Assembly (NCBI RefSeq): GCF_905475395.1 | Contig: NC_058341.1 | Location: 66,843,501-66,907,500 of the forward strand | Length of the DNA: 64,000 bases | Source of the DNA: Chrysoperla carnea | Taxonomy: Eukaryota; Arthropoda; Insecta; Neuroptera; Chrysopidae | Reading direction: 5' to 3' | In this document: one piece after another, positions 10,032 to 64,000 of the stretch | Position numbering within the stretch: position 1 is the first letter of the stretch | Layout: every line of letters begins with the position of its first letter | Program-made: the position numbers and the translations under genes | Notes under the pieces: generated by a model | The model's input: only the letters and a program-made list of their open reading frames with translations | What the model was told of the DNA's origin: nothing | Database searches by the model: none

Positions 10032-10542
10032 GTTGGCTGATAAGTCCCCGGTCTGACACATAAATGGCGTCGCTAGTATTAAATGCATATTATTTTTATA
10101 TAGTACCAACCTTCAAATGATTCGTGTCAAAATTTGACGTCTGTAAGTCAATTAGTTTGTGAGATAGAGCGTCTTTTGTGAAGCAACTTTTGTTATTGTG
10201 AAAAAAATGGAAAAAAAGGAATTTCGTGTTTTGATAAAATACTGTTTTCTGAAGGGAAAAAATACAGTGGAAGCAAAAACTTGGCTTGATAATGAGTTTC
10301 CGGACTCTGTATTTTTTCCCTTCAGAAAACAGTATTTTATCAAAACACGAAATTCCATTTTTTCCATTTTTTTCACAATAACAAAAGTTGCTTCACAAAA
10401 GACGCTCTATCTCACAAACTAATTGACTTACAGACGTCAAATTTTGACACGAATCATTTGAAGGTTGGTACTATATAAAAATAATATGCATTTAATACTA
10501 GCGACGCCATTTATGTGTCAGACCGGGGACTTATCAGCCAAC
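10032..10542. mobile_element. Mariner-derived fold-back element
   Basis: Two 236-bp arms (10032-10267 and 10307-10542) are almost perfect inverted copies around a 39-bp loop. Each outer end is a mariner terminal repeat (GTTGGCTGATAAGTCCCCGG). Each arm continues through the 5' UTR into the start of a mariner transposase, the protein beginning MEKKEFRVLIKYCFLKGKNT. The element is two copies of the 5' quarter of a mariner joined head to head. It has no transposase of its own but both ends are of the kind a mariner transposase would bind. Confidence 0.85.
10207..10306 (+). pseudogene. Mariner transposase N-terminal fragment
   Basis: The first 30 or so residues of a mariner-type transposase (start MEKKEFRVLIKY) are readable from 10207 on the plus strand, and again in mirror image from about 10367 on the minus strand. 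The frame runs into the loop and then into the inverted arm, so no DNA-binding or DDD catalytic domain follows. It is an inert remnant. Confidence 0.75.
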
Positions 10543-14209: not shown

Positions 14210-14910
14210 AATAGCCATTCTTAGGGAGTCCTCAATAACACCTCCGATTTTTATGATTTTTTTTAAATGTTTTTTTCTTATATTATTTAAAATCAGAAAC
14301 CTTCCGGAGGGGAGAAGTTATCTGGACGGGGAAAAGGCAATGTCCCCACTTGTATATCAATGCTCAGCCTAAATCGCTAATGATAGAAGTTTGTACTTTC
14401 GAGAGAATATTGATTTTATACTGTAGGTGCCATTTAATAAAGGATTTTTCGAAATTCATATCTTAAAAGGGTGAAGGTTTGAATGAAAATATATACAAAT
14501 CTTCATTTTTGAGTTCTCTACTAAACCGATTTTAAAAATTCTCACGAATGGAATGCTACATTATCAGTAAAAAACATGGGTTGTATTTTATTGTTATTAT
14601 GGTAGAATTCACTTTTTGAGGAAAAATCTTGCAAGAGTTTTTTATATAAGTTGCAAATAAATTATTTAAACAATAATAGCAATAACTGGCAATTATCTAC
14701 GTTATAGCCTTCAATTCTCTTACTTTTTACTTTCACTTTTGTTCGCTAATTAATGGATTTTAACTTTTGGTGCGAATCCCTAATTATTTTGAAAAGAATA
14801 AATACTGCCATGCCACTTGCTGATAATGTAGCATTCTATAGATGAAAGAATTTTTAAAATCGGTTACGTAGTGAACTCAAAAATGTCGGTTTCACTATTT
14901 AATGACATAG
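14210..14910. repeat. Two family B units in inverted orientation
   Basis: 14210-14590 is family B on the minus strand (GGGAGTCCTCAATAAC at its start, a Gly/Pro-coding-like GC patch GGAGGGGAGAAG, then GATAATGTAGC in complement). 14600-14910 is the part containing GCATTCTATAGATGAAAGAA on the plus strand. Together they form an imperfect hairpin next to the large palindrome that follows. Confidence 0.55.
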
Positions 14911-14941
14911 ACCAGGTAGTAGAGTGAAATTACGCCTTGTG

Positions 14942-16924: not shown

Positions 16925-16959
16925 TAACAGTCTTTTTTTGCTTAGATTTACTCCAGTAA

Positions 16960-17345
16960 GGTTATTTGCTGATAATGTAGCATTCAATAAGTGAATGAAT
17001 TTTTATAATCGGTTAAGTAGACAACTCAAAAATGAATATTTGTATATATTTTCATATAAACTTTCATCTCCTATTTCACCCTTTTAGCGGATGAATTTCG
17101 ACAAATCCTTTCCTAAATGACACATACAGTATAAAATCAATACCCTTTCGAAATTTCAAACTTCTATCGATAGCGATTTAGGCTGGGCGACGATATATCA
17201 GTCGGGGTATTGCCTTTTCTCCTTCCAGGTTATTCCCCCCTTCTGAAATGTTTCTGATTTTAAATAATATACAAAAAGAATTATTTAGACAAAAAAAATC
17301 ATCAAATCGTAGCTGTTATTGAGGACACTCGAGTTAAAACATTCA
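16960..17345 (+). repeat. Dispersed repeat family B copy
   Basis: Contains GATAATGTAGCATTCAATAA, GTCGGGGTATTGCCTTTTC and the end block TATTGAGGACAC, in the same order as near 9.6 and 47.9 kb. Confidence 0.65.
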
Positions 17346-21680: not shown

Positions 21681-23235
21681 ATAAGAACACCATGAACTAG
21701 TAAACGCCAAATATTATTAATAATTAAAAATAATTATATATCAAAAAATTGCCCCTGAAATGCTAACAATAGGGAATATTTATGAAATTTAAATTTGGCT
21801 CAAATTGTTTTTTCCGTAACTTTATTGGCTGGACATTTCAACTAAACCATTATTACCTAAAATTAATTAGTAAAAGTGCAAATTTAGTGAGAGAAATTCC
21901 AAATTTCTAAAACGGAAATTCAAATTTTAAATCGGACATAACGTCATAGTATTGGCTTTGTCAAATTCGTTGGCATACTGTATGGTATTATATATTTATA
22001 TTTTGTATGGTATTACATTGAGTTATATTATTCTACGATTTTTCATTAGAAAACTTAATAATAACGTGTGTCAATTCTGTGTTGTAAATTAATTTTTTTT
22101 AAGTGTAAATTATACATTGAACTGTCACCAATTGACAGGTCACATATTAATACGCCATCAACAGAGAACGCCAAAAGACTGCGTTTAAAAATCTCAAAAT
22201 TATTTTGTATTTTAAATAATTTTTTTACACTTAATTACAGCATTTTTAAACAGTTTTTATATTTGTTACTATGTTATAATGGTGAAAACAATGAATTAAA
22301 AATATTTAAAAAAAATACATTAATATTCCCTATTGCTCCACTTATATAAATAATAGTTACTTAGTAATTCAATATTAAAAATATTTTAATATTGAACGTC
22401 AAATTAATTTGTTATTTAAACCCCACTAACGACATCTTGATTTTAAACTTTTTTTATACCATGTATATATGAAATATACATATTACCTATACCATGTATA
22501 TATGAAATATACATAGTATATTAAGTTTAGTCCCAAGTTTGTAACGCTTAAAAAAAATGATGCTAGGAAAAAAATTTTGTCATAGGTGTTCATAAAATCA
22601 CCTAATTAGTCCATTTCCGGTTGTCCGTCCGTCCGTCCATCTGTGGACACGATAACTCAAAAACGAAAAAAGATATCGAGCTGAAATTTTTACAGCGTAC
22701 TCAGGACGTAAAAAGTATGAGGTCAAATGAGCATCATAGGTCAATTGGGTCTTGGGTCCGTAGGACCCATCTTGTAAACCGTTAGAGATAGAACAAAATG
22801 TTCCTTATCAAAAAACAACTTTTGTTTGAAACATTTTTTCGTAAACATCACTGTTTATCCGTGAGGGCGCCAATTAGGCGGAAATTTTATAATATGTACT
22901 ATACTTGATTATCAGTTATGTATGTGTCACATGTTTGTATGTGTAATGTGATAAAGAAATCAACACTGACTATGCATGGTATTTCAACAATTAACTTGGT
23001 CAATTGTTTGTTTTACTTGTTTTTTTTTTTTAATATTAACATTTGAAGTATGTAATATGTAAATGTAAATAAAGACAATTAGGAAATATAATTTAATTAT
23101 TATGAATGACTAATTAACTATTAAATATTTAAGTGGAGTAATTGTATAATCTAAAGGAGCATTTCCGGAGCAATTTTTTGAAATATAATTGTTTTTAAAA
23201 TATGAATATTTGGCGCTAACTAGTTTATGGTGATA
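21681..23235. repeat. Inverted-repeat-bounded unit enclosing a family A copy
   Basis: 21681-21767 (CACCATGAACTAGTAAACGC ... CAAAAAATTGCCCCTGAAATG) matches the complement of 23153-23235 at roughly four bases in five. The unit of about 1.55 kb contains AT-rich non-coding DNA and the family A copy at 22455-23020, which probably inserted into it. Confidence 0.5.
22455..23020 (+). repeat. Dispersed repeat family A, copy 2
   Basis: Nearly complete. The start is partly duplicated (TATACCATGTATATATGAAA twice). It contains the GTCCGTCCGTCC tract, CAGCGTACTCAGGACGTAAA and GGTCCGTAGGACCC. It forms an inverted pair with copy 3 at 23404-23970. Confidence 0.8.
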
Positions 23236-23403
23236 AAAACTACTTAGCCCACATGCAATTACATAATCGCACTCATTTTTTTATTACCACACTCATTTTC
23301 AACCTATTCAATTAGCTTAAAAAGGAGTTACATAAGTTTTAACCAATCAGATTACATTACATTACATAATCAAATTAGACAAATTACTGTCAAAATCTAA
23401 ACT

Positions 23404-23970
23404 AATAACAAGTGAAAACAAACAATTGACTGAGTTAATTGTTGAAATACCATGCAAAGTCAGTGTTGATTTCTTTATCACATAACACATACAAACATGT
23501 GACACATACATAACTGATAATCAAGTATAGTACATATTATAAAATTTCCGCCTAATTGGCGCCCTCACGGGTAAACAGTGATGTTTACGAAAAAATGTTT
23601 CAAACAAAAGTTGTTTCATTTTTGATAAGGAACATTTTTTACATTTAAACTTTTGTACTATCTAACGGTTTACAAGATGGGTCCTACGGACCCAAGACCC
23701 AACTGACCTATGATGCTCATTTACGAACTTGACCTCACTTTTTACGTCCTGAGTACGCTGTAAAAATTTCAGCTCGATATCTTTTTTCGTTTTTGAATTA
23801 TCGTGTCCACAGACGGACGGACGGACGGACAACCGGAAATGGACTAATTAGGTGATTTTATGAACACCTATGAAAAATTTTTTTTCCTAGCACCATTATT
23901 TTTAAGCGTTACAAACTTGGGACTAAACTTATTATACTATGTATATTTCATATACCTATACATGGTATAA
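23404..23970 (-). repeat. Dispersed repeat family A, copy 3
   Basis: Full-length copy in reverse orientation, from AACAAGTGAAAACAAACAAT to CATACCTATACATGGTATAA. Together with copy 2 it gives two arms of about 570 bp around a 380-bp spacer, able to form a large hairpin. Confidence 0.8.
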
Positions 23971-43212: not shown

Positions 43213-44096
43213 AAACATTGGCTTACTTTACAAATTAAAACAACATCTTCCAAGTAAATATTATTGTATTTTGAAATCTTATCTAGAAGCATTTTCAGGT
43301 CAAAGTTCAAGAAAAGTTATCTGACTTGTTTCCTATTCAATCTGGCGTACCACAGGGCAGCGTTCTGGGCTTAACTCTCTACTTGATGTATACCGCGGAC
43401 TTACCAGCCGACGGAAAAAATACCATAGCTACTTTTGCAGATGATACTGCAATATTATCCACAGACCTGGACCCAAATGTAGCTTCTCAAGGACTACAAA
43501 ATAGTATAAATAAAATACAAAACTGGTTACAAAAGTGGCGTATTCAAGTAAATGAACAAAAATCAGCTCAAGTAACATTCTCTTTAAGAAGGGAAACTTG
43601 TCCAGCTGTAAAAATGAACAATGTCAGTTTTCCACAGGCAAACAAAGTGAAATACCTGGGAATTCACTTAGACAGAAGGCTAACTTGGCGCCAACACATC
43701 TGGTCCAAGAGAAAACAATTAAATTTAAAATTTTCGAAACTTTACTGGCTGTTAGGTCATAAATCTATGTTATCATTAGACAATAAAGTGCTAGTGTATA
43801 AAACAATTTTAAAACCTGTGTGGACTTATGGGATTCAAGTATGGGGAACTGCTAGCAACAGTAACATCGAAATTATTCAACGGTTTCAATCAAAAGTGTT
43901 ACGAACAATTAGTGAATCTCCCTGGTACGTGCGTAATGACGACATTCACCGTAGTCTCAAAGTGCCCACAGTACGCGAAGAAATTACGCGGTTCAGTGAA
44001 AGTTACTTGACTCGCCTTGAAAGTCACCCAAATGTTGAAGTAATCAATCTCTTAGACAATAGTGAAAGAGTAAATAGACTAGACAAAGTGTTCTAG
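43213..44096 (+). pseudogene. Jockey-like LINE reverse transcriptase, 5'-truncated, one frameshift
   Basis: The open part (43287-44096) includes the late RT motifs: FPIQSGVPQGSVLG (motif B/4 region, near 43327), FADDTAIL (catalytic FADD box near 43434), then KYLGIHLDRRLTWRQHI and the thumb region, ending LDKVF-stop at 44096. Upstream, 43213-43280 reads LLYKLKQHLPSKYYCILKSYL in another frame, so a frameshift lies near 43280. Endonuclease, ORF1 and the early RT motifs are missing. It is a typical dead-on-arrival copy, though the 3' 800 bp are undamaged, which suggests moderate age. Confidence 0.88.
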
Positions 44097-49990: not shown

Positions 49991-50869
49991 ATTGCATATG
50001 TTGAAATATATCTGCAGATGCAAAGGAATTATCAATTTTTTAATTAATCGAGATATTTGCTAAAAATATATCAATTTATTGTTTCAATGTATTTATTGTT
50101 ATTGTTATGACCCTGACAGCCACACTGTTTATAAAACGTGTGATAGAATGATCGATTCAACGATATTTTGAAAGAAATTTGTATCCCTTACTATTTTTCC
50201 ATTTGTTTATTCTTTGCAATCTTCCTAACTTTTATGATTCGCTAGAAAAATATGTACAAGATAACTGCGTCGAGATTTTAATATTAGTCAAAGATATCTA
50301 TAAGGTGTTTAGAACCAACATCGTAAAGTCGTAACCTTAGCCAGTGGGATCTAAACCCTTAGATTTGAAATATTTCCAGGAAGGACTTTTCGACACGTGA
50401 AATAATCCATCCCCGCGAAATACGATCATACATTTAGCGATCAATCTATACACCACTTTGCAATAAATTTCGTTTATCCACACGGTAAGAAATGTATGGT
50501 AAGAAATAATGCACGGTAAGAAATGACTGGTAGATAAGCTATACCAGTCCGGGCCCACTTTTGCTCATTTTTACATGTTATTTCTTATGGGAAATTCTAA
50601 GGTCCATTTTGCACTTTTTTGTTCCTTTTTATGTAATGCTGGTTGCCTAACCTTAACGCATACTTATTATTTATGTATGTATATTGTATTCAATTACAAC
50701 CCATCTGAACCACACTTGTTAACACACTTACATCATACTCTTTACTTACCATTATTTGTAATTTAGCATACGTAGCGTACGTTGGTATAATTGTCAACAT
50801 AACTTCTTCATGTATTAACAGCGAATATTAATAATATTATATGGATTGCTTAAAAAAATTTTACTTACT
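49991..50869. other. Gene-free stretch before the giant palindrome
   Basis: No domain-bearing frame. The short frames at 50337-50558 and 50575-50766 are not recognised. A small repeated block ACGGTAAGAAAT occurs near 50481-50525. Confidence 0.45.
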
Positions 50870-50950
50870 ACTATAAGATTTGAACGCGGGCCCTCATGAG
50901 CGGAAGTCTACTATGCTAACCACTCAACCACAAGACCTTGTTACAACATA
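50870..50950 (-). other. tRNA-like promoter sequence (SINE head or tRNA relic)
   Basis: Read on the minus strand: TGGTTGAGTGGTTAG resembles a tRNA A box, and 40 bases later CGTTCAAATC resembles a B box. Spacing fits a tRNA, but the acceptor and anticodon stems do not pair, so it is at most a degraded tRNA or the head of a tRNA-derived SINE. The mirror copy begins at about 63970 and runs off the window. Confidence 0.35.
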
Positions 50951-51694
50951 GACAAAAAAAGTTAATAACTTAAAAACGTTTTTACAAAAATAATTTAAAA
51001 TATTATATTCATGAAGGTCAAATATTATTTAAAGTGTTTTGTAAAAAGAAACTCAATTACATTATTTAGATTTTTATTTTATTAGTAAACAATATTGATA
51101 TACAGTATAATAATATTAATATATACTAAATTATAAATAGATAGCTAATTTACAAGGTAATAATAATTCAATGGTTAATTATGCATTTTTTAATTTATTG
51201 GTAGATTTTTATTTTATTGGTAAACAATTGATATACAATACAATAATATTAATACTAAATTATAAATAGATAATTAATTTATAAGATAACAATTCTATTG
51301 CTAAAAGAAAACTCTAATTAATTTGTTTAATTATATGTAAATAATTTAATAGGTATATAAGTTTCTGCAAGTCCTATGACAAATTTTAAAACATACGATT
51401 TTTTTTTTATAAATGAGCATATATTCAATTTGTTTTAGAGGTTATAAAAATTAATTTTACGTTACACACACACACAATCACACCTCAATGAGATGACATT
51501 TTAAAAATCAACAAAAAAAACATTTTAACATAATATTAAATAGGTAATAATTAATTAATTAATTAAAGTTTACACTGATTTTTTAACAATATTGAGATTA
51601 TTGAGATAACTTATGAATTCAAGAATTTCACTATAAATGATATTAGCATCGATCTCTTCAATGAATAAGTGATATTGTCATGCTTACGAATTAA
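50951..51694. other. 3' flank of the left polymerase gene
   Basis: AT-rich, no gene. Two similar blocks of about 80 bp (ATTTTTATTTTATT..TAAACAA, TAAATTATAAATAGATA) form a tandem duplication at 51070-51160 and 51200-51290. An AATAAA-type signal for the minus-strand gene is at 51217-51222. The mirror copy is 63226-63969. Confidence 0.5.
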
Positions 51695-54600
51695 CTATAC
51701 ATTTTTTTTCTTTTTGATGCAAGGTTCATCTATATATTCAGCTTTTCGTTTATAGGTTGTAGTATTCAAAGAATAGTGACCCCAGGGTAGTGTATCATAG
51801 GAACCAGGTATAATATATCGCTTATCATCATAAGGGCTTAGAGCAATTTTTGTCTGAGTTTGGGTGTAAAGCTTAAGTTTATCAGATTTTATGAGGTTTT
51901 GATCAACTGATATCTCTTTAAATTCCTCCAAACATTCAACATAATCTTCAAATGTTATTTTCGTACTAAGAACTGACCTTTTAACTCCCTTAGCTTTTTT
52001 TGTTAACCCAAGATTATTTGGTTCTTGTTTAATATTCCCATGATTAAATATAGCATCATCAAGTGATTTTGATTGTTTTTCTAGAGGGGTTGCTATTTTT
52101 AATGTATATAATTTTGATCGTAATCCTACAAAATGAGTCATAGGAGTTCCATTGTTTTCATCCTTCATCATACCAAGCACTTTCTTATTAACGCAAGGTA
52201 TATTATAAACATTAGAAGGATGGTAATCACTGGTATCAAAATACTTGTGACAATCTCTTTTTATCATTTCATAGGGATCATGGTTTTTAATTTCGTAAAT
52301 AACCGAGTCAGTATCTGTATAGATAGCGGTAGAATCATCACCCAGCTGTGGAATCATATAGCCATAATGAAAATCATAAATTGTAGTTTTAGCTAAATCT
52401 AAGATTGCCATACCAATATACAAAGGCTTATTGAAGAATATCTCCATCTTTTTCAACTCAATAGCCACCAAGTTTGAATTGAAAATTGTACAAGAATGAA
52501 ATTGGGGTTTAGATATATAAGCTTCTGCCCCATATCGACCCTCCCATTTTGTAACAAGCTTTACATTAGAATGTTTCCTAATATTTTCCATTGTTTTTCC
52601 AAAGACGGCATTGTTCATTAATTTATACAAATTTTTCTCAAAATCATTATTAGCATTCTTTCGTAGTTTGGTATTTAAATCAATATATGATTGAAGCCAA
52701 GGCGACTGTTTAAATTTTAAAACTTTATGAATTTTTTCTAATTTTAGCCCATTGTTTAATGCCTGCTTCAATGTTCTATAATGAATTACATATCGCTCTT
52801 TATCATGAAGAGTACCCATCAATTTACTCTGTTTAGAATTAGGTGCTGTTCTATGTTCAGGGCAAAAAGGTAAATCCTTATGTTTATCATGAAGTTCTTC
52901 AGGATATTTGAGATCCACTTCTAAGAAATATCCATTATCAGCGTCATCTAAAATCATCGAAACATCAATATCTGTATCACACCACTCAAAACCACTGTAA
53001 GGAAGACACTGACTCATCGCCCATCCATATTGATTGTTAATGTCTGTATAAAGTAAATACACTTCAGGCTTGGATGGATCAAATCCTGGAATGTATTTAT
53101 TATTCGCTGTGGAACGTCGTTTCATACATTGACTCAAACCACCGCGAATTCCTCGTTCGACAAACATCATCATATCTATATCAGTCAACAATTCGAGCTC
53201 AATATTTGTATACTTCAACATACAGTCAAACGTAAATCCCGGAAGTGTATAGTAATTTCCCGGGTCAATGTTGTACGTAGACAGACAGGTTGCTCTAAAC
53301 GTTTCGAAAATATCCGTAAGTAGCATTATATCCGTTTCCATATAGAGATCTACATAATCACCTAAATTTGAACAATTAAATGCTGACCAAACGTTTTGCG
53401 CATGATGATACATTTGTCTAGAACACTGTTTCTCCTCCAATCGATTATAGAATGCTTCTATGTTCGGTAGTTGAGTGTAATTAAATTTATCAAAAGAATC
53501 AATAAAATCATATGGCATTACACCTTTCTTTTTCAACAATTGAAACTGATTTTCTGAAACGTTAGAAAAACGCTTCTTCATGTTAGGAAATTCCGACAAG
53601 TATGAAGCTAGCTTATCAAGGGAAGAAGCTAAAAATCTGAATGAATCTATGAATCGAAATTTTATAGATGAATCTTCAATGTTTTTGGTGAAAGAAATAT
53701 ATTTTTCTTTGGTAACAGGTAAAAGTTCAACGCGCCCTCCAATCTTTGTCGCAACATCTTCAACTATCAGCATCCCATCATAATTTGACATATTATGGAA
53801 CACTACAGGAACAACATGGCTATCTTGATAATTAATATTACATGATTCGTGGGCAGGGCCTCTGTAATTGGTACCATCTTTATATCCACCAGTTTTCGAC
53901 GCAAGATGAAAATGGTCTCTAACTTTCTTTTCCTCATCCACAAATGGTTTATTACATATATGACAATGTGTAGATTTCTGAAAATCTTCCTCTTCAATAG
54001 TAGTTAATGGATCCATCTCATACGAGCACAATAAAATTGTTTCCACTTCTTCAGATATTTGTTTTAACTCCCTTATAAACCAATCCATACAATCCACTCC
54101 ACGATATGAACGATAATATGATAATGAATCATCATAAGCACATTTAAAATAATACCCAACAACAGCAGGTATATGTTTTTGATACCGAATTTTATCATCC
54201 AGAGGTTCCAATACAGATTCGATATCCCCGTAAATGATAAAAGGGGTTTTCTCTTTATTTTTAAAATTTTTGAATTTTAAAATATTTTCTCCTTCCTTAG
54301 GCATTCTTATCGCACAATCATTCATTTTCTTACAGTTTTCATAATGGCTGTTCAATTTTTCTTCTGAGTAGAAATAGTGTAAGCATCGCTCACAGAAAAA
54401 CTTTTTATGACCATCTTTATTCAGCTGGGAGGAAACCAAACGTGATAGATTTTTAACCCAAACGTAATGATAACGAATGGGTAATAAATTATTATCATTA
54501 TCATCAACATCTTCATCATACTGATCTTGAATCAGTAATAAATTCACATGATTAATCAATTTATTTTTTGTTAAGTAGCATGGCACAACATTAAAATTTT

Positions 54601-55543
54601 TCAAGTGTTTCTTCAGTACATAAACATTTATCGATATTTCATTTTGATTTTCAAAGTTAGGTATCTGTTTTAGTGTCATTGGAAACTGTACACCTTTCAA
54701 CTTCAACACTTTTGAATAATGTGGATATTTTGAAATACGCTGGGGATGCTTCTCAACTGGATACAATGCTGACGTCACAGCCCACGCAAAGCATGCATTA
54801 TCATCATTCTTTACGTTTATACAAGCTTCTAGTCGTTTGATTTGGGTAGGTAGTTCAATATATGACGATCCAAGTAATGGTGTATATTTATTTATATTAA
54901 CACCAAGGTTAATAATGTTTACTAGAGCCCAACCGCTATCGCGTTCCTGGAATTCTTCCAAATCACGTGTTATCGGACCAACAACATTCTTCCCAAACCA
55001 TTCATTCACATCAGTATTCTGATATATTGGATTATTTGAAGTAGTGAAGTATTTGTGTTCAGTTATCATTTTGTTTGCAGATACAATTTGAAATTCTCCA
55101 CAGAAAATAACGTTAACTTTTATAGCTTCATGAATTTTCAGAACGTTACTTATTCTTCGTCGAAAAAGTGCTTCACAATCCTTCAAAAATGCTTTAGGAT
55201 CTTTATGTTTCAGATTACTAATAATACCAGTTCTAAGCCGACTCTCAAATGCAGATAGGGAATCATCCCATCGTACTCTCTTTGCAGCCGTCTCTTTTCG
55301 ACTTTGAACACCTGCTCCGTGCTTTAACATACACTTAAGATTGCAACGATAACTTTTTACAAGAGCCAAGTTTGCTAACAAATTCTGCTTTTTACCAACA
55401 GATTTTGCAGCTTTCAATTTTTTACATATCCGTCGAACAGCAATATTGCAATTTTTCAATCCATCTCCAATATTCAATTTATTAGCAGTCATGGTGTCGA
55501 TAGATTTTATTTTCTCCAACAAAGTAGACATTGAGTACGTCAT
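51695..55543 (-). CDS. Polinton-type family B DNA polymerase (left copy)
   Basis: Intact frame of about 1282 codons starting at an ATG whose first residues are MTYSMSTLLEK. Its translation is identical to the copy at 59377-63225. Domains counted from that Met: N-terminal basic region of unknown role (1-130); C2HC-type zinc finger (C384, C387, H400, C404); 3'-5' exonuclease with Exo I DIE (D440, E442), Exo II HNMSNYD (near 583-589) and Exo III YMETD (734-738). An endonuclease VII-like Cys/His insert lies between Exo I and II (C527, C530, RDHFH 542-546, C568, N569). Palm motif A is YTDINNQYGWAM (D834), motif B KLMNNAVFG (974-982), motif C YTDTDS (1075-1080), and the KxY triad KLY is near 1144. 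This is the protein-primed branch of family B, which replicates linear DNA elements from a terminal protein. The gene is transcribed away from the spacer, and its 5'-UTR intron lies at 55560-56014. Confidence 0.93.
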   Translation of the reverse strand: MTYSMSTLLEKIKSIDTMTANKLNIGDGLKNCNIAVRRICKKLKAAKSVGKKQNLLANLALVKSYRCNLKCMLKHGAGVQSRKETAAKRVRWDDSLSAFESRLRTGIISNLKHKDPKAFLKDCEALFRRRISNVLKIHEAIKVNVIFCGEFQIVSANKMITEHKYFTTSNNPIYQNTDVNEWFGKNVVGPITRDLEEFQERDSGWALVNIINLGVNINKYTPLLGSSYIELPTQIKRLEACINVKNDDNACFAWAVTSALYPVEKHPQRISKYPHYSKVLKLKGVQFPMTLKQIPNFENQNEISINVYVLKKHLKNFNVVPCYLTKNKLINHVNLLLIQDQYDEDVDDNDNNLLPIRYHYVWVKNLSRLVSSQLNKDGHKKFFCERCLHYFYSEEKLNSHYENCKKMNDCAIRMPKEGENILKFKNFKNKEKTPFIIYGDIESVLEPLDDKIRYQKHIPAVVGYYFKCAYDDSLSYYRSYRGVDCMDWFIRELKQISEEVETILLCSYEMDPLTTIEEEDFQKSTHCHICNKPFVDEEKKVRDHFHLASKTGGYKDGTNYRGPAHESCNINYQDSHVVPVVFHNMSNYDGMLIVEDVATKIGGRVELLPVTKEKYISFTKNIEDSSIKFRFIDSFRFLASSLDKLASYLSEFPNMKKRFSNVSENQFQLLKKKGVMPYDFIDSFDKFNYTQLPNIEAFYNRLEEKQCSRQMYHHAQNVWSAFNCSNLGDYVDLYMETDIMLLTDIFETFRATCLSTYNIDPGNYYTLPGFTFDCMLKYTNIELELLTDIDMMMFVERGIRGGLSQCMKRRSTANNKYIPGFDPSKPEVYLLYTDINNQYGWAMSQCLPYSGFEWCDTDIDVSMILDDADNGYFLEVDLKYPEELHDKHKDLPFCPEHRTAPNSKQSKLMGTLHDKERYVIHYRTLKQALNNGLKLEKIHKVLKFKQSPWLQSYIDLNTKLRKNANNDFEKNLYKLMNNAVFGKTMENIRKHSNVKLVTKWEGRYGAEAYISKPQFHSCTIFNSNLVAIELKKMEIFFNKPLYIGMAILDLAKTTIYDFHYGYMIPQLGDDSTAIYTDTDSVIYEIKNHDPYEMIKRDCHKYFDTSDYHPSNVYNIPCVNKKVLGMMKDENNGTPMTHFVGLRSKLYTLKIATPLEKQSKSLDDAIFNHGNIKQEPNNLGLTKKAKGVKRSVLSTKITFEDYVECLEEFKEISVDQNLIKSDKLKLYTQTQTKIALSPYDDKRYIIPGSYDTLPWGHYSLNTTTYKRKAEYIDEPCIKKKKNV

Positions 55544-55559
55544 TTTCACTGTATGAAAT

Positions 55560-56014
55560 CTAGAAATGATATAAGAAAAAATAGGTTTTAATCGTATAAT
55601 ATATAATCAATAATTATAGTTCAAATACATGAAGATAAACGAACTTTTACAAATATTACTGATATTATCACATAGAAAAAATAAAATTTTATATATATGC
55701 GTACAGTAATGCTGAACCTAAAACATAATTTTGTAATAGTTTAGATTTTCATATAAACCAAACATTCTCAATATCTATGTTTTATATACCTAAATCATAT
55801 AGATAACTGCCCGTTTTGTAAGCGGGTCTTACAGATATCATGATTTGATACAATCACCCATATAGAGATACTTCATTAATACACAGATAGAAAACGTTGA
55901 TTTTAATAGTATACAATCTAATCCAAACAAAAATATATTATATATTATAGTTTTCACTTCGCTTTATCATTACAAAGTAATAGATAGATGACGTGTTCGT
56001 GTTATGAAACTTAC
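55560..56014 (-). other. 5'-UTR intron of the left polymerase gene
   Basis: Mirror of 58906-59360: donor AAG|GTAAGT and acceptor TTTCTTATATCATTTCTAG. Confidence 0.5.
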
Positions 56015-56168
56015 CTTACAACAACAATAATCAACAGTTATATATTTTTTAAGACACACAAACTTTACAACAATGTTCACGATATGTAACACACTTTTAT
56101 TATAATAATTTTTAAGGCACTTTTATTATGATTATTAATAACTTGTTCACTTTCACTGTAAATATTCA

Positions 56169-56204
56169 ACTGAGTCAGGTCAAGGTAATAACGCTGCTTA
56201 TATA
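56169..56204 (-). promoter_or_regulatory. Core promoter of the left polymerase gene
   Basis: TATATAAG at 56197-56204 and TCAGT at 56169-56173 on the minus strand, mirror of the right-arm promoter. Confidence 0.55.
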
Positions 56205-56318
56205 CGTTTTTCAAAATTGAAATATTTGAACATGTTTTGACATGTAAAAAATTGTTCTAGAACATTATTTTATAGTTTAACAATTTGAAAAATAGATTAT
56301 TCATCATCTTGTTACAAG

Positions 56319-56618
56319 TTCAAACTTGTTTGAAATAATTTTACATGTGTCAAAACACGTGACCGGATGTTAATATTTTTTTATGATTAAGCAATGTAAT
56401 ATGACACTTGAAATTTACATAATAAAAATACATGTTCAAACTTGTTTGAATGGACTTTGATCTTAAAATAATTTTACACGTGTCAGCTATTCTCAAGAAT
56501 ATGTTGAAATAGATTTGACCTTGAAAAATATGATATCATCATCCTGTTACAAGTTCAAACTTGTTTGAATAAAAATACATGTTCAAACTTGTTTGAACAT
56601 GTTTAAACTTGTTTGAAT
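56319..56618 (-). promoter_or_regulatory. Five dyad motifs upstream of the left polymerase
   Basis: TTCAAAC-N2-GTTTGAA at 56319, 56435, 56555, 56582 and (one mismatch) 56603, mirror of the right-arm set. Confidence 0.5.
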
Positions 56619-56766
56619 CGCATTAGATCTTAAAAAAATTTTACACGTGTTATGAGATTAGAATAAAGGTTTTATTTAATAAAAATCTTTATTTTTTTTT
56701 TATACAACACAAATATGTTCGCAAAAACGGTCCACTATGACAGATTTTTTATTGTTACAAGTATGT

Positions 56767-56991
56767 TCATAAAAACGGTCCACTATAAAATAAGACTTTT
56801 TTATCAATATATGAATCGTGTAAAGAGTCGAACACTAACCACCTGACTTTAACGTTGGATTCACGTTTAGCTAAGACCTTTTCCACTAAATAAATGTTTG
56901 GATGGTGAACTTTTTGTAATTCTTCGGCATAGAAACCACCCTTTATATCTTCGTTGCTGTTATCCTTCAATAAATATACAGGTCTCTTTCT
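56767..56991 (-). pseudogene. Polinton integrase C-terminal chromodomain fragment (left copy)
   Basis: Identical to 57929-58153, see there. It points away from the spacer, in line with the polymerase gene. Confidence 0.6.
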
Positions 56992-57130
56992 AAACAGGTC
57001 TGTATCTAAACAGGTCTGTATCTAAACAGGTCTGTATCTAAACAGATCTGTATCTAAACAGGTCTCTTTCTAAACAGGTCTCTTTCTAAACAGGTCTCTT
57101 TCTAACAGATCAGTATTAAACAGGTCTGTT
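56979..57130. repeat. 16-bp tandem repeat, left copy
   Basis: About nine units of 16 bp of the form AGGTCTGTATCTAAAC or AGGTCTCTTTCTAAAC, followed by a shorter dyad (ACAGGTCTGTTTAGTACTGG ... GACCTGTTTA). It overlaps the 5' end of the integrase stub, whose own codons contain AGAGACCTGT, so the array probably grew from that piece. Confidence 0.8.
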
Positions 57131-57289
57131 TAGTACTGGTTTGACCTGTTTAATTATATTAATTGATAAATTAAGAAGGCTACATTCTACAAACATCGGA
57201 AGAGAAATACTATCTATAATCCAATACTTGAGGAAAACAAATATAATTAAATAACAAGTTTATAATAACTTTATCAAAAATTAAAAAGC

Positions 57290-57640
57290 TGGAGTAAAAT
57301 CGGTGAAAACCGGAGTAAAACCGGAGTAAAATCGGCGAAAGTCGGAGTAAAATCGGTGAAAACCGATCTTCATTCATTAGATCTACATACATGTATTCAT
57401 TTTATCAATTTTATTCCGATTTTGCTCCGACTTTCGCCGATTTTACTCCGGTTTTACTCCGGTTTTCACTGATTTTACTCCGACTTTCGCCGATTTTACT
57501 CCGGTTTTACTCCGGTTTTCACCGATTTTACTCCGACTTTCGCCGATTTTACTCCGGTTTTCACCGATTTTACTCCGACTTTCGCCGATTTTACTCCGGT
57601 TTTACTCCGGTTTTCACCGATTTTACTCCAGCTTTTTAAT
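57290..57640. repeat. Minisatellite at the palindrome centre
   Basis: Built from two alternating modules, TTTTACTCCGGTTTTCACCGA and TTTTACTCCGACTTTCGCCGA, some with an additional TTTTACTCCGG. In the left part (57290-57365) they appear as the complement, and from 57401 to 57630 on the plus strand. The mirror stops at 57365/57555, leaving a 189-bp spacer that itself holds about 110-140 bp of additional modules plus the non-repeated ATCTTCATTCATTAGATCTA. Frames through it read as Phe/Tyr/Ser/Gly repeats and are not genes. Confidence 0.85.
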
Positions 57641-57789
57641 TTTTGATAAAGTTATTATAAACTTGTTATTTAATTATATTTGTTTTCCTCAAGTATTGGA
57701 TTATAGATAGTATTTCTCTTCCGATGTTTGTAGAATGTAGCCTTCTTAATTTATCAATTAATATAATTAAACAGGTCAAACCAGTACTA

Positions 57790-57941
57790 AACAGACCTGT
57801 TTAATACTGATCTGTTAGAAAGAGACCTGTTTAGAAAGAGACCTGTTTAGAAAGAGACCTGTTTAGATACAGATCTGTTTAGATACAGACCTGTTTAGAT
57901 ACAGACCTGTTTAGATACAGACCTGTTTAGAAAGAGACCTG
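57790..57941. repeat. 16-bp tandem repeat, right copy
   Basis: Mirror of 56979-57130. Confidence 0.8.
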
Positions 57942-58153
57942 TATATTTATTGAAGGATAACAGCAACGAAGATATAAAGGGTGGTTTCTATGCCGAAGAA
58001 TTACAAAAAGTTCACCATCCAAACATTTATTTAGTGGAAAAGGTCTTAGCTAAACGTGAATCCAACGTTAAAGTCAGGTGGTTAGTGTTCGACTCTTTAC
58101 ACGATTCATATATTGATAAAAAAGTCTTATTTTATAGTGGACCGTTTTTATGA
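57929..58153 (+). pseudogene. Polinton integrase C-terminal chromodomain fragment (right copy)
   Basis: The frame reads RPVYLLKDNSNEDIKGGFYA, then EELQKVHHPNIYLVEKVLA, VRWLVFDSLHDSYIDKK and a stop. The 'YxLKD..xExIKGxFYxxELQKV' lead followed by a chromodomain-like beta fold (YLVEKVL..., VRWLVFD, SYID) is the C-terminal end of Polinton/Maverick retroviral-type integrases. The zinc-binding and DDE catalytic parts are absent: the frame runs upstream into the 16-bp tandem repeat. No plausible ATG is present, so I treat it as a truncated relic, although the short domain itself is undamaged. It lies about 560 bp upstream of the polymerase TATA box in the same orientation. Confidence 0.6.
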
Positions 58154-58301
58154 ACATACTTGTAACAATAAAAAATCTGTCATAGTGGACCGTTTTTGCG
58201 AACATATTTGTGTTGTATAAAAAAAAAATAAAGATTTTTATTAAATAAAACCTTTATTCTAATCTCATAACACGTGTAAAATTATTTTAAGATCTAATGC
58301 G

Positions 58302-58601
58302 ATTCAAACAAGTTTAAACATGTTCAAACAAGTTTGAACATGTATTTTTATTCAAACAAGTTTGAACTTGTAACAGGATGATGATATCATATTTTTCAAG
58401 GTCAAATCTATTTCAACATATTCTTGAGAATAGCTGACACGTGTAAAATTATTTTAAGATCAAAGTCCATTCAAACAAGTTTGAACATGTATTTTTATTA
58501 TGTAAATTTCAAGTGTCATATTACATTGCTTAATCATAAAAAAATATTAACATCCGGTCACGTGTTTTGACACATGTAAAATTATTTCAAACAAGTTTGA
58601 A
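58302..58601 (+). promoter_or_regulatory. Five dyad motifs upstream of the right polymerase
   Basis: TTCAAACAAGTTTGAA (a TTCAAAC-N2-GTTTGAA dyad) starts at 58302 (one mismatch), 58323, 58350, 58470 and 58586, often followed by CATGT or CTTGT. Between them the block CACGTGTAAAATTATTTTAAGAT recurs (58271, 58439, partly 58572). The repeated dyads 115-450 bp before the TATA box look like binding sites for a dimeric factor or remnants of a replication origin. No factor can be named. Confidence 0.55.
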
Positions 58602-58715
58602 CTTGTAACAAGATGATGAATAATCTATTTTTCAAATTGTTAAACTATAAAATAATGTTCTAGAACAATTTTTTACATGTCAAAACATGTTCAAATATTT
58701 CAATTTTGAAAAACG

Positions 58716-58751
58716 TATATAAGCAGCGTTATTACCTTGACCTGACTCAGT
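58716..58751 (+). promoter_or_regulatory. TATA box and initiator of the right polymerase gene
   Basis: TATATAAG at 58716-58723 and TCAGT at 58747-58751, with the initiator A 33 bases after the first TATA base. This is the classical arthropod RNA polymerase II core promoter arrangement, implying the gene is read by host transcription. Confidence 0.6.
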
Positions 58752-58905
58752 TGAATATTTACAGTGAAAGTGAACAAGTTATTAATAATCATAATAAAAG
58801 TGCCTTAAAAATTATTATAATAAAAGTGTGTTACATATCGTGAACATTGTTGTAAAGTTTGTGTGTCTTAAAAAATATATAACTGTTGATTATTGTTGTT
58901 GTAAG

Positions 58906-59360
58906 GTAAGTTTCATAACACGAACACGTCATCTATCTATTACTTTGTAATGATAAAGCGAAGTGAAAACTATAATATATAATATATTTTTGTTTGGATT
59001 AGATTGTATACTATTAAAATCAACGTTTTCTATCTGTGTATTAATGAAGTATCTCTATATGGGTGATTGTATCAAATCATGATATCTGTAAGACCCGCTT
59101 ACAAAACGGGCAGTTATCTATATGATTTAGGTATATAAAACATAGATATTGAGAATGTTTGGTTTATATGAAAATCTAAACTATTACAAAATTATGTTTT
59201 AGGTTCAGCATTACTGTACGCATATATATAAAATTTTATTTTTTCTATGTGATAATATCAGTAATATTTGTAAAAGTTCGTTTATCTTCATGTATTTGAA
59301 CTATAATTATTGATTATATATTATACGATTAAAACCTATTTTTTCTTATATCATTTCTAG
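58906..59360 (+). other. 5'-UTR intron of the right polymerase gene
   Basis: Donor AAG|GTAAGT at 58906 and a pyrimidine-rich acceptor ending TTTCTAG at 59360, 16 bases before the ATG. The intervening 455 bp is AT-rich and non-coding. Both splice signals are near consensus, but splicing itself is inferred. Confidence 0.55.
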
Positions 59361-59376
59361 ATTTCATACAGTGAAA

Positions 59377-62300
59377 ATGACGTACTCAATGTCTACTTTG
59401 TTGGAGAAAATAAAATCTATCGACACCATGACTGCTAATAAATTGAATATTGGAGATGGATTGAAAAATTGCAATATTGCTGTTCGACGGATATGTAAAA
59501 AATTGAAAGCTGCAAAATCTGTTGGTAAAAAGCAGAATTTGTTAGCAAACTTGGCTCTTGTAAAAAGTTATCGTTGCAATCTTAAGTGTATGTTAAAGCA
59601 CGGAGCAGGTGTTCAAAGTCGAAAAGAGACGGCTGCAAAGAGAGTACGATGGGATGATTCCCTATCTGCATTTGAGAGTCGGCTTAGAACTGGTATTATT
59701 AGTAATCTGAAACATAAAGATCCTAAAGCATTTTTGAAGGATTGTGAAGCACTTTTTCGACGAAGAATAAGTAACGTTCTGAAAATTCATGAAGCTATAA
59801 AAGTTAACGTTATTTTCTGTGGAGAATTTCAAATTGTATCTGCAAACAAAATGATAACTGAACACAAATACTTCACTACTTCAAATAATCCAATATATCA
59901 GAATACTGATGTGAATGAATGGTTTGGGAAGAATGTTGTTGGTCCGATAACACGTGATTTGGAAGAATTCCAGGAACGCGATAGCGGTTGGGCTCTAGTA
60001 AACATTATTAACCTTGGTGTTAATATAAATAAATATACACCATTACTTGGATCGTCATATATTGAACTACCTACCCAAATCAAACGACTAGAAGCTTGTA
60101 TAAACGTAAAGAATGATGATAATGCATGCTTTGCGTGGGCTGTGACGTCAGCATTGTATCCAGTTGAGAAGCATCCCCAGCGTATTTCAAAATATCCACA
60201 TTATTCAAAAGTGTTGAAGTTGAAAGGTGTACAGTTTCCAATGACACTAAAACAGATACCTAACTTTGAAAATCAAAATGAAATATCGATAAATGTTTAT
60301 GTACTGAAGAAACACTTGAAAAATTTTAATGTTGTGCCATGCTACTTAACAAAAAATAAATTGATTAATCATGTGAATTTATTACTGATTCAAGATCAGT
60401 ATGATGAAGATGTTGATGATAATGATAATAATTTATTACCCATTCGTTATCATTACGTTTGGGTTAAAAATCTATCACGTTTGGTTTCCTCCCAGCTGAA
60501 TAAAGATGGTCATAAAAAGTTTTTCTGTGAGCGATGCTTACACTATTTCTACTCAGAAGAAAAATTGAACAGCCATTATGAAAACTGTAAGAAAATGAAT
60601 GATTGTGCGATAAGAATGCCTAAGGAAGGAGAAAATATTTTAAAATTCAAAAATTTTAAAAATAAAGAGAAAACCCCTTTTATCATTTACGGGGATATCG
60701 AATCTGTATTGGAACCTCTGGATGATAAAATTCGGTATCAAAAACATATACCTGCTGTTGTTGGGTATTATTTTAAATGTGCTTATGATGATTCATTATC
60801 ATATTATCGTTCATATCGTGGAGTGGATTGTATGGATTGGTTTATAAGGGAGTTAAAACAAATATCTGAAGAAGTGGAAACAATTTTATTGTGCTCGTAT
60901 GAGATGGATCCATTAACTACTATTGAAGAGGAAGATTTTCAGAAATCTACACATTGTCATATATGTAATAAACCATTTGTGGATGAGGAAAAGAAAGTTA
61001 GAGACCATTTTCATCTTGCGTCGAAAACTGGTGGATATAAAGATGGTACCAATTACAGAGGCCCTGCCCACGAATCATGTAATATTAATTATCAAGATAG
61101 CCATGTTGTTCCTGTAGTGTTCCATAATATGTCAAATTATGATGGGATGCTGATAGTTGAAGATGTTGCGACAAAGATTGGAGGGCGCGTTGAACTTTTA
61201 CCTGTTACCAAAGAAAAATATATTTCTTTCACCAAAAACATTGAAGATTCATCTATAAAATTTCGATTCATAGATTCATTCAGATTTTTAGCTTCTTCCC
61301 TTGATAAGCTAGCTTCATACTTGTCGGAATTTCCTAACATGAAGAAGCGTTTTTCTAACGTTTCAGAAAATCAGTTTCAATTGTTGAAAAAGAAAGGTGT
61401 AATGCCATATGATTTTATTGATTCTTTTGATAAATTTAATTACACTCAACTACCGAACATAGAAGCATTCTATAATCGATTGGAGGAGAAACAGTGTTCT
61501 AGACAAATGTATCATCATGCGCAAAACGTTTGGTCAGCATTTAATTGTTCAAATTTAGGTGATTATGTAGATCTCTATATGGAAACGGATATAATGCTAC
61601 TTACGGATATTTTCGAAACGTTTAGAGCAACCTGTCTGTCTACGTACAACATTGACCCGGGAAATTACTATACACTTCCGGGATTTACGTTTGACTGTAT
61701 GTTGAAGTATACAAATATTGAGCTCGAATTGTTGACTGATATAGATATGATGATGTTTGTCGAACGAGGAATTCGCGGTGGTTTGAGTCAATGTATGAAA
61801 CGACGTTCCACAGCGAATAATAAATACATTCCAGGATTTGATCCATCCAAGCCTGAAGTGTATTTACTTTATACAGACATTAACAATCAATATGGATGGG
61901 CGATGAGTCAGTGTCTTCCTTACAGTGGTTTTGAGTGGTGTGATACAGATATTGATGTTTCGATGATTTTAGATGACGCTGATAATGGATATTTCTTAGA
62001 AGTGGATCTCAAATATCCTGAAGAACTTCATGATAAACATAAGGATTTACCTTTTTGCCCTGAACATAGAACAGCACCTAATTCTAAACAGAGTAAATTG
62101 ATGGGTACTCTTCATGATAAAGAGCGATATGTAATTCATTATAGAACATTGAAGCAGGCATTAAACAATGGGCTAAAATTAGAAAAAATTCATAAAGTTT
62201 TAAAATTTAAACAGTCGCCTTGGCTTCAATCATATATTGATTTAAATACCAAACTACGAAAGAATGCTAATAATGATTTTGAGAAAAATTTGTATAAATT

Positions 62301-63225
62301 AATGAACAATGCCGTCTTTGGAAAAACAATGGAAAATATTAGGAAACATTCTAATGTAAAGCTTGTTACAAAATGGGAGGGTCGATATGGGGCAGAAGCT
62401 TATATATCTAAACCCCAATTTCATTCTTGTACAATTTTCAATTCAAACTTGGTGGCTATTGAGTTGAAAAAGATGGAGATATTCTTCAATAAGCCTTTGT
62501 ATATTGGTATGGCAATCTTAGATTTAGCTAAAACTACAATTTATGATTTTCATTATGGCTATATGATTCCACAGCTGGGTGATGATTCTACCGCTATCTA
62601 TACAGATACTGACTCGGTTATTTACGAAATTAAAAACCATGATCCCTATGAAATGATAAAAAGAGATTGTCACAAGTATTTTGATACCAGTGATTACCAT
62701 CCTTCTAATGTTTATAATATACCTTGCGTTAATAAGAAAGTGCTTGGTATGATGAAGGATGAAAACAATGGAACTCCTATGACTCATTTTGTAGGATTAC
62801 GATCAAAATTATATACATTAAAAATAGCAACCCCTCTAGAAAAACAATCAAAATCACTTGATGATGCTATATTTAATCATGGGAATATTAAACAAGAACC
62901 AAATAATCTTGGGTTAACAAAAAAAGCTAAGGGAGTTAAAAGGTCAGTTCTTAGTACGAAAATAACATTTGAAGATTATGTTGAATGTTTGGAGGAATTT
63001 AAAGAGATATCAGTTGATCAAAACCTCATAAAATCTGATAAACTTAAGCTTTACACCCAAACTCAGACAAAAATTGCTCTAAGCCCTTATGATGATAAGC
63101 GATATATTATACCTGGTTCCTATGATACACTACCCTGGGGTCACTATTCTTTGAATACTACAACCTATAAACGAAAAGCTGAATATATAGATGAACCTTG
63201 CATCAAAAAGAAAAAAAATGTATAG
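59377..63225 (+). CDS. Polinton-type family B DNA polymerase (right copy)
   Basis: Same 1282-residue protein as the left copy, with every exonuclease, endonuclease VII-like and polymerase motif intact. The start ATG at 59377 is chosen because it is the first ATG after the predicted splice acceptor; a GTG six bases before it is in frame but not a eukaryotic start. Length and motif order match polymerases of Polinton/Maverick elements and their virus-like relatives, with the HxxC/CN endonuclease VII insert seen in many animal copies. There are no stops or frameshifts, and the C terminus is lysine-rich (CIKKKKNV), a possible nuclear localisation signal. With two identical copies and no partner genes it may be functional in isolation, recently duplicated, or an assembly duplicate. 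Confidence 0.94.
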   Translation: MTYSMSTLLEKIKSIDTMTANKLNIGDGLKNCNIAVRRICKKLKAAKSVGKKQNLLANLALVKSYRCNLKCMLKHGAGVQSRKETAAKRVRWDDSLSAFESRLRTGIISNLKHKDPKAFLKDCEALFRRRISNVLKIHEAIKVNVIFCGEFQIVSANKMITEHKYFTTSNNPIYQNTDVNEWFGKNVVGPITRDLEEFQERDSGWALVNIINLGVNINKYTPLLGSSYIELPTQIKRLEACINVKNDDNACFAWAVTSALYPVEKHPQRISKYPHYSKVLKLKGVQFPMTLKQIPNFENQNEISINVYVLKKHLKNFNVVPCYLTKNKLINHVNLLLIQDQYDEDVDDNDNNLLPIRYHYVWVKNLSRLVSSQLNKDGHKKFFCERCLHYFYSEEKLNSHYENCKKMNDCAIRMPKEGENILKFKNFKNKEKTPFIIYGDIESVLEPLDDKIRYQKHIPAVVGYYFKCAYDDSLSYYRSYRGVDCMDWFIRELKQISEEVETILLCSYEMDPLTTIEEEDFQKSTHCHICNKPFVDEEKKVRDHFHLASKTGGYKDGTNYRGPAHESCNINYQDSHVVPVVFHNMSNYDGMLIVEDVATKIGGRVELLPVTKEKYISFTKNIEDSSIKFRFIDSFRFLASSLDKLASYLSEFPNMKKRFSNVSENQFQLLKKKGVMPYDFIDSFDKFNYTQLPNIEAFYNRLEEKQCSRQMYHHAQNVWSAFNCSNLGDYVDLYMETDIMLLTDIFETFRATCLSTYNIDPGNYYTLPGFTFDCMLKYTNIELELLTDIDMMMFVERGIRGGLSQCMKRRSTANNKYIPGFDPSKPEVYLLYTDINNQYGWAMSQCLPYSGFEWCDTDIDVSMILDDADNGYFLEVDLKYPEELHDKHKDLPFCPEHRTAPNSKQSKLMGTLHDKERYVIHYRTLKQALNNGLKLEKIHKVLKFKQSPWLQSYIDLNTKLRKNANNDFEKNLYKLMNNAVFGKTMENIRKHSNVKLVTKWEGRYGAEAYISKPQFHSCTIFNSNLVAIELKKMEIFFNKPLYIGMAILDLAKTTIYDFHYGYMIPQLGDDSTAIYTDTDSVIYEIKNHDPYEMIKRDCHKYFDTSDYHPSNVYNIPCVNKKVLGMMKDENNGTPMTHFVGLRSKLYTLKIATPLEKQSKSLDDAIFNHGNIKQEPNNLGLTKKAKGVKRSVLSTKITFEDYVECLEEFKEISVDQNLIKSDKLKLYTQTQTKIALSPYDDKRYIIPGSYDTLPWGHYSLNTTTYKRKAEYIDEPCIKKKKNV

Positions 63226-63969
63226 TTAATTCGTAAGCATGACAATATCACTTATTCATTGAAGAGATCGATGCTAATATCATTTATAGTGAAATTCTTG
63301 AATTCATAAGTTATCTCAATAATCTCAATATTGTTAAAAAATCAGTGTAAACTTTAATTAATTAATTAATTATTACCTATTTAATATTATGTTAAAATGT
63401 TTTTTTTGTTGATTTTTAAAATGTCATCTCATTGAGGTGTGATTGTGTGTGTGTGTAACGTAAAATTAATTTTTATAACCTCTAAAACAAATTGAATATA
63501 TGCTCATTTATAAAAAAAAAATCGTATGTTTTAAAATTTGTCATAGGACTTGCAGAAACTTATATATTAAATTATTTACATATAATTAAACAAATTAATT
63601 AGAGTTTTCTTTTAGCAATAGAATTGTTATCTTATAAATTAATTATCTATTTATAATTTAGTATTAATATTATTGTATTGTATATCAATTGTTTACCAAT
63701 AAAATAAAAATCTACCAATAAATTAAAAAATGCATAATTAACCATTGAATTATTATTACCTTGTAAATTAGCTATCTATTTATAATTTAGTATATATTAA
63801 TATTATTATACTGTATATCAATATTGTTTACTAATAAAATAAAAATCTAAATAATGTAATTGAGTTTCTTTTTACAAAACACTTTAAATAATATTTGACC
63901 TTCATGAATATAATATTTTAAATTATTTTTGTAAAAACGTTTTTAAGTTATTAACTTTTTTTGTCTATG
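63226..63969. other. 3' flank of the right polymerase gene
   Basis: Mirror of 50951-51694. AATAAA at 63698-63703 is the first evident polyadenylation signal. Includes TG repeats at 63443-63455. No gene. Confidence 0.5.
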
Positions 63970-64000
63970 TTGTAACAAGGTCTTGTGGTTGAGTGGTTAG

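Follow-up and report, generated by a model that had tools for sequence, protein, structure and literature searches.

In a 64,000-nucleotide stretch of the Chrysoperla carnea genome (contig NC_058341.1, positions 66,843,501 to 66,907,500; hereafter the window, G000:C5:66843501-66907500 of an assembly of 559,487,470 bases and 337 contigs), we found a palindrome of about 13.86 kb that is a real, repeatedly inserted mobile element with Polinton ends and a polymerase gene, although by gene content it is no complete Polinton. It is probably a Polinton/Maverick derivative in which one polymerase-bearing Polinton end was fused to its own mirror copy, a fold-back form that now makes up a lasting family. 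The features of the window copy are as follows.

50529..64000, no strand: entire palindromic element, with a sharp boundary common to other copies; its real right end lies 387 bp past the window at C5:66907887 (window coordinate 64387; right end in L009).
50530..57365, + strand: left arm, 6836 bp, from mirror comparison.
57555..64000, continuing to 64386, - strand: right arm, mirror of the left arm, from mirror comparison.
50530..50570, + strand: outermost sequence of the inverted repeat, reading GTAGATAAGCTATACC...; in most of the other copies it starts one base earlier, with A (AGTAGATAAG), and here base 50529 is G.
51350..51353, no strand: 4-bp TAGG insertion private to the left arm, from comparison of copies.
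51695..55549, - strand: family-B DNA polymerase gene of the left arm, 1284 codons, open (PF03175, E value of 1e-25; conserved columns; motif positions).
59371..63225, + strand: family-B DNA polymerase gene of the right arm, identical to the left (mirror and PF03175 match).
56636, no strand: lone arm mismatch within 51354-57365, from mirror recomputation.
56767..57021, - strand: integrase C-terminal remnant (chromodomain region), an 84-codon frame from which the integrase core is absent.
57899..58153, + strand: mirror copy of the integrase C-terminal remnant.
56978..57129, no strand: 16-bp tandem array (ACAGGTCTGTATCTAA) of the left arm; mirror at 57789-57942.
57366..57554, no strand: central spacer of 189 bp without mirror, within the CGGAGTAAAA-type tandem array at the turning point.

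An earlier note on this DNA had described an apparently perfect palindrome of more than 13 kb starting at 50920, and the palindrome proved to be nearly perfect and larger than claimed. Base-by-base recomputation paired 51354-57365 with 57555-63566 at the coordinate sum of 114920 that had been given as constant, with a single mismatch at 56636; beyond 51350-51353 the sum shifts to 114916, because TAGG is inserted in the left arm. The claims of perfection and of no indel over 6446 bp thus fell to one mismatch and one 4-bp indel, and BLASTN of the arms over 6450 bp likewise gave 1 mismatch and 1 gap. Position 50920 is merely the mirrored window edge, and the actual left limit is 50529/50530. The mirror runs from window position 50530 to C5:66907886 (window coordinate 64386), where it stops without continuing into neighboring unique DNA, and the flanks beyond both limits are unrelated. 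The element consists of arms of 6836 bp and 6832 bp around a spacer that is nonmirrored, as the note had said. An arm match of 6.8 kb at 99.9% is far above chance.

Copies with the same sharp ends were found at unlinked loci, including C3:57692046-57706249, C1:50103383-50117660, and C6:2813159-2829005, and there were internally deleted copies at C4:36877546-36883138 (C4) and C3:15586704-15593015 (C3b). A genome search with the terminal sequence returned 88 matches, of which the best candidates alone were scored; among the matches listed were at least 14 inverted pairs spaced 1.2 to 33 kb apart, one of which (C6:5.89 Mb) was without its outermost left portion, and other matches were unpaired. 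The element ends (AGTAGATAAG/CTTATCTACT) form a conserved terminal inverted repeat starting with AG, as in Polintons, with A as the first base in 10 of 11 other copies and G in the window copy and C6_6.04. Nine of the 12 copies with both ends read were flanked by a perfect 6-bp target duplication (GAGGAC, AATATA, CCTTTA, CATAAC, AGGTTA, AACAAG, CGTCTG, GGTTCG, and TCCAGG), the length characteristic of Polintons. The same centre lay between the same two outer ends at C5, C3, and C1, and at C3 and C1 one 6-bp duplication enclosed the whole unit. Termini of this kind also bound two miniature palindromes, one of 1.2 kb (L047, C197:1524200-1525480) and one of 1.9 kb (L048, C1:139329880-139331850), which are too small for a polymerase gene and resemble miniature inverted-repeat transposable elements of the palindromic family. 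Across 598 bp, the arms of the C197 miniature showed 4 substitutions plus 16 gap columns, and across 956 bp those of the C1 miniature showed 6 substitutions.

Both arms of the window copy hold the same open polymerase frame (1284 codons from GTG and 1282 from ATG), in agreement with the two intact, identical 1282-residue proteins reported before. The predicted protein appears to be a polymerase of the Polinton/Maverick type, with a PF03175 match at 1e-25 and homology to insect and adintovirus PolB. It retains every column that is invariant in a 13-sequence alignment, the window protein included, and the exonuclease and polymerase motifs are in place. No solved structure matched it by sequence. 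A tree of 27 polymerases placed the window protein in one group with the two closest Chrysoperla proteins (100/100), nested in a well-supported, mostly beetle set and apart from the ordinary lacewing Polinton. Apart from the polymerase, we found no further long frame among the open reading frames of the arm (hexon and penton were not queried). The integrase stub of the earlier note was borne out: over 61 amino acids it was 51% identical (67 bits) to the integrase C terminus of an ordinary Polinton of the same genome, while the best of 200 shuffles scored 20.8. The remnant and the 16-bp array together recur at many loci as a short open frame of about 79 to 84 codons, which looks like a widespread deletion derivative of a different Polinton group.

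The ordinary Polinton used for comparison (C3:6503835-6518825) is 15.0 kb long, starts with AGTAGGTAAG, is flanked by the duplication TCCTTT, and has one polymerase and terminal repeats of about 323 bp, excluding a 768-bp insert in the left one. It encodes an integrase (rve, 1.6e-15; chromodomain, 8.7e-5), an A32-like ATPase, and a protein with a phospholipase A2 domain. These three and nine unnamed frames, among which capsid and protease were unassigned, served as 12 queries against 26 sequences, namely, the window and 25 stretches of the palindromic family or near relatives; the sole match was the integrase C terminus, residues 240 to 306. As positive controls we had either the element that supplied the queries or L040, a near copy of it; these prove that the search works and not how far it reaches. 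Thus, the palindromic element has no packaging ATPase in this comparison and only the C-terminal remnant of an RVE-type integrase, and its inverted repeat makes up nearly the whole element (arms of 6.8 kb versus about 0.32 kb in the ordinary Polinton here). Full-length open Polinton integrase frames exist elsewhere in the genome, with at least 132 integrase matches; among the matches listed, none fell inside the palindromic copies named here. In the same list, integrase matches were abundant near one end of C5 (71-74 Mb) and of C1 (138-140 Mb) and on C6. At C231:130665-151861 (L055, L056, L059, and L060), we observed two inverted copies of another Polinton group, with halves 98 to 99.7% alike over long parts and 85 to 92% alike over others. 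We considered this locus as a second palindromic family and set that aside, as the roughly 9.4 kb between the halves starts with the other-side sequence of linear copies; the locus is probably two linear copies and possibly a second palindromic family.

Wherever copies were divergent enough for the comparison, the arms within a copy were more alike than those of different copies. In a comparison of seven copies, arm substitutions numbered 0/4681 in the window, 0/5070 in C3a, 0/5070 in C1, 0/2139 in C4, 27/5590 in C6a, 10/3171 in C3b, and 20/4407 in C6b, with divergence between copies reaching 5.65%. Over 11 copies, the arm difference was 0 to 0.8%, versus up to about 18% among copies; a second, extended comparison gave 25/3178 for C3b. 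The arms of C6_6.04 differed at 9/3970 positions and those of C6_1.25 at 2/3487, with the nearest other copy at 12.3% and 6.4%, respectively, and the arms of the C225 palindrome were identical at 3621/3621 bases. C225 was 81 to 84% identical to the window arm over about 2.3 kb (the polymerase start and the preceding stretch), and its inner part was unalignable. Most substitutions relative to the window arm were common to both arms of a copy (257/277 in C6a, 234/254 in C6b, and 54/63 in C3b), leaving 20 (14 and 6), 20 (12 and 8), and 9 (0 and 9), respectively, in one arm only. In a tree of 17 arms, in which the C3a and C1 rows were identical or nearly so, both arms grouped together in 8/8 tested copies, and 0/200 shuffles did as well. 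In the polymerase gene, the 1.5-kb segment 53530-55030 of the window was 11 to 14% from C6a and C6b, with the remaining 500-bp bins at 0 to 4.4%. This segment looks like a mosaic produced by recombination between relatives, and it is present in both arms, because the C6a and C6b arms are nearly equal. The ratio of nonsynonymous to synonymous divergence (dN/dS) of the polymerase gene was 0.18 for window-C6a (dS of 0.20) and, over 320 codons, 0.25 for window-C225 (dS of 0.40) and 0.21 for C6a-C225 (dS of 0.51), values that point to purifying selection on the polymerase during divergence of the family.

A linear relative, L063 (C5:73324001-73332400), was 98.1% identical to the right arm of the C225 palindrome over 3932 bp and 98.0% identical to its left arm over 3446 bp. 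The C225 turning point corresponds to L063:4159, some 85 bp beyond the point where the integrase reading frame ends, and there L063 continues into the integrase gene, beyond which come a weak ORF160 match (37%, 1.6e-4) and then an ORF374 match (56%). The outward order in L063 is integrase, polymerase, and terminus, the last placed by the terminal-sequence search, as the stretch from 73332400 to the terminus lies outside the sequence read. The C225 centre holds 17 tandem-array units, and L063 holds 0. These arrangements would fit a fold-back within a linear Polinton, with the arrays having formed where it turned back; the symmetry expected of such a derivative is present, and with L063 as the linear relative, the direction of derivation could be either way. 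The window-type centre holds the integrase C terminus and the 16-bp array and matches copies of another Polinton group at 93 to 95% identity along some 445 bp. We rejected the idea that the window arms fold back exactly in their own integrase gene, as the remnant and the array occur at many loci and are closest to that other group. The suggestion in the note that the junction lies at the terminal repeats was not supported: the outer ends are those of the transposon, and interior DNA makes up the centre, which carries integrase-gene sequence in the window type and adjoins the integrase position of the linear relative in the C225 type.

Polintons are thought to replicate like adenovirus. In adenovirus, the terminal repeats of the displaced strand anneal to each other, and the resulting panhandle restores the origin (PMC9863843). 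We propose that, during such protein-primed, strand-displacing replication, a strand would fold back inside the element and be copied to its own end, giving a product with the same origin and transposon end at both sides. In later cycles, the displaced strand would fold into one long hairpin, and a change in one arm would be either repaired against the other or transferred to it. The panhandle of a palindromic molecule would take in its entire length, and arm mismatches would meet in one duplex, where they could be corrected, which would account for the two-sided changes and for the coalescence of arms within each copy. The hairpin stage would equalise the arms before each insertion, and the arms would drift afterwards. 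Insertion would occur in trans through the integrase of other Polintons in the same genome; such dependence on a helper would suit an element in which a full integrase is missing while open integrase frames exist elsewhere. Among the origins that the earlier note had offered, a head-to-head product of a linear protein-primed element is the one favored by the evidence. Its alternative of an extremely recent duplication fits the insertion in the window but not the palindromic form, with the C225 palindrome 16 to 18% from the window arm where alignable. A stronger version, which we hold only tentatively, is that of a long-lived palindromic transposon lineage, in each generation of which the element's own polymerase would make a replicon that is either a full-length hairpin or a one-armed closed hairpin. 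The two gene copies would evolve as one, the form would have persisted or repeatedly re-formed across subfamilies (polymerase dS of 0.2 to 0.5), and the integrase of resident Polintons would be used.

Several observations weigh against a fold-back derivative that forms a lasting family. No perfect target duplication flanks the window copy, C6_6.04 (AGGTGT versus AAGTGG, a 4/6 match), or the 1.9-kb C1 copy; in the window copy it may have been lost by rearrangement. A second arm was not found at C6:12.47 Mb within about 8 kb beyond the polymerase start, nor at C6:6.35 Mb within about 9 kb; these loci may be broken palindromes or linear relatives. At C5:71.57 Mb the mirror ends after 507 bp (97.2%), with other elements nested within. 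L063 is itself decayed, its integrase frame broken in the C-terminal part and its polymerase interrupted by a gap and stops. Additionally, L063:3164-4151 is 75% identical to the ordinary element, and the arm homology begins at 4159, so that L063 could be a recombinant between a palindrome arm and an ordinary Polinton half. The window-type and C225-type centres appear to be separate events, giving at least two distinct centres, because the window-type remnant and array resemble another Polinton group. As for the arms, window, C3a, and C1 differ mutually by 0 to 1 substitutions and are uninformative for arm pairing, the window left arm is equally close to C1 and to its own right arm, and arm pairing in C6a has weak support (63/39). 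The right arm of C6_3.47 was noisy, at 22% in the multiple alignment; by BLASTN, the arms of this copy were 99.3 and 99.5% identical over 1345 and 968 bp. Three indels occur in both arms of C1, one of them shifting the polymerase frame, and all lie in homopolymers or an AC run, so they could be sequencing errors; if they are genuine, the polymerase of C1 was disrupted either ahead of insertion or in the course of it, with polymerase acting in trans. Polishing with reads from both arms could also inflate the equality of young arms.

Gene conversion is known between the arms of sex-chromosome palindromes, and the same element could have had its arms equalised in the chromosome after insertion by this ordinary process, with no need for hairpin replication; this, too, would yield the pairing of arms in the tree and the two-sided changes. 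We nevertheless regard it as unlikely: the one-sided differences in C6a (14+6), C6b (12+8), and C3b (0+9) are what drift after insertion predicts, although partial conversion is compatible with them, and the near-identical C3a, C1, and window copies, on three contigs, are all without arm substitutions over about 5 kb. In a variant that overlaps our preferred explanation and that we judge decidedly improbable, the extrachromosomal unit would be one arm whose array end is covalently closed into a hairpin, the palindrome being the replicated dimer that integrates. The tandem arrays at the turning points of both window-type and C225-type copies, the 17 array units in C225 versus 0 in the linear relative, and the coalescence of arms per copy agree with it. 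However, the arm has no other long frame and hence no candidate resolvase, a replicated hairpin should leave a small loop and the window spacer is 189 bp, and window-type arrays also occur in other Polinton copies.

Adjacent inverted Polinton copies do seem to be present in this genome, as at C231 if it is read as two linear copies, and the palindrome might then have arisen by separate, oppositely oriented insertions of two single-arm elements, or by local inverted duplication. This we consider highly improbable, given that the centre and outer ends are shared at C5, C3, and C1, that a single 6-bp duplication surrounds the unit at C3 and C1, and that arms within a copy are closer than different copies. 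A fold-back artefact of library construction or assembly, which the earlier note had also raised, would suit the near-perfect symmetry and a window copy without target duplication. Recurrence at unlinked loci with fixed ends, target duplications in most copies, and private arm differences make it very unlikely indeed, and internally deleted copies (C4 and C3b) speak against it as well.

The element resembles Polintons/Mavericks in its AGTAG-type terminal sequence, 6-bp target duplication, Polinton-kind family-B polymerase, and integrase remnant, and it differs in having the polymerase twice and arms that are each about half of the element; intact vertebrate Mavericks have inverted repeats of 46 to 1447 bp (PMC8097293). 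Snapback genomes of adeno-associated virus carry a self-complementary duplicate of one end, with the terminal repeat kept and the rest lost (PMC8235507). The palindromic family appears to share with them the duplication of one genome end as a mirror, whereas it is heritable and dispersed, its polymerase appears to be under purifying selection, and the replication enzymes differ. The window PolB is 48% identical to that of a Megastigmus wasp adintovirus, and an integrase with a C-terminal chromodomain is described as typical of adintoviruses (PMC11071296). In contrast to adintoviruses, the palindromic arms are without a further long frame. Foldback elements also have long inverted repeats, and both they and Teratorn differ from the palindromic Polinton family in enzymes and origin. 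Teratorn is a transposon with long inverted repeats (PMC6431247).

Outside this genome, no palindromic relative was found in 15 contigs with distant polymerase relatives, comprising L037, a viral contig at 37% identity, and 14 others (L023-L036) that carry the label of bacterial or archaeal metagenome-assembled genomes; their inverted repeats of at least 100 bp amounted to one 108-bp pair, in L025. Polymerase relatives are also filed under a Rickettsia endosymbiont (P0015), and these and the bacterial or archaeal entries (L023-L036) may be DNA of eukaryotic or viral origin that was misbinned. In metagenome-type sources, close relatives of the polymerase (P0023-P0048) lie on contigs of 3.9 to 7.1 kb, mostly 4 to 5 kb, that barely exceed the gene; such contigs could be palindromes collapsed to one arm, and other causes are possible. 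No palindromic Polinton appeared in the titles or abstract openings of the literature searched, a scope outside which most subscription journals fall.

Elsewhere in the window, we noted nested palindromes at 14257-17293 (arms of 526, 296, and 186 bp at 97 to 99%, around 15933), a palindrome at 10032-10542 (arms of 236 bp at 100%, around 10287), and another at 22499-23954 (arms of 218 and 229 bp at 97 and 93%). These smaller palindromes may be other inverted-repeat elements. Two reverse transcriptase frames on the + strand mark retroelements, one at 3143-6616 (1157 codons; PF00078, 3.6e-27) and one at 43326-44096 (256 codons; PF00078, 1.6e-14).

Viral replication is known to yield defective fold-back genomes (PMC8235507), and the form described here has the appearance of a transposon family that is inherited and whose polymerase gene is under selection. 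A long palindrome in an assembly need not be an artefact, and terminal repeats appear able to grow to nearly the whole element. As two-sided changes would date from before insertion and one-sided changes from after it, the replication cycle of a Polinton may be readable from genome sequence alone.

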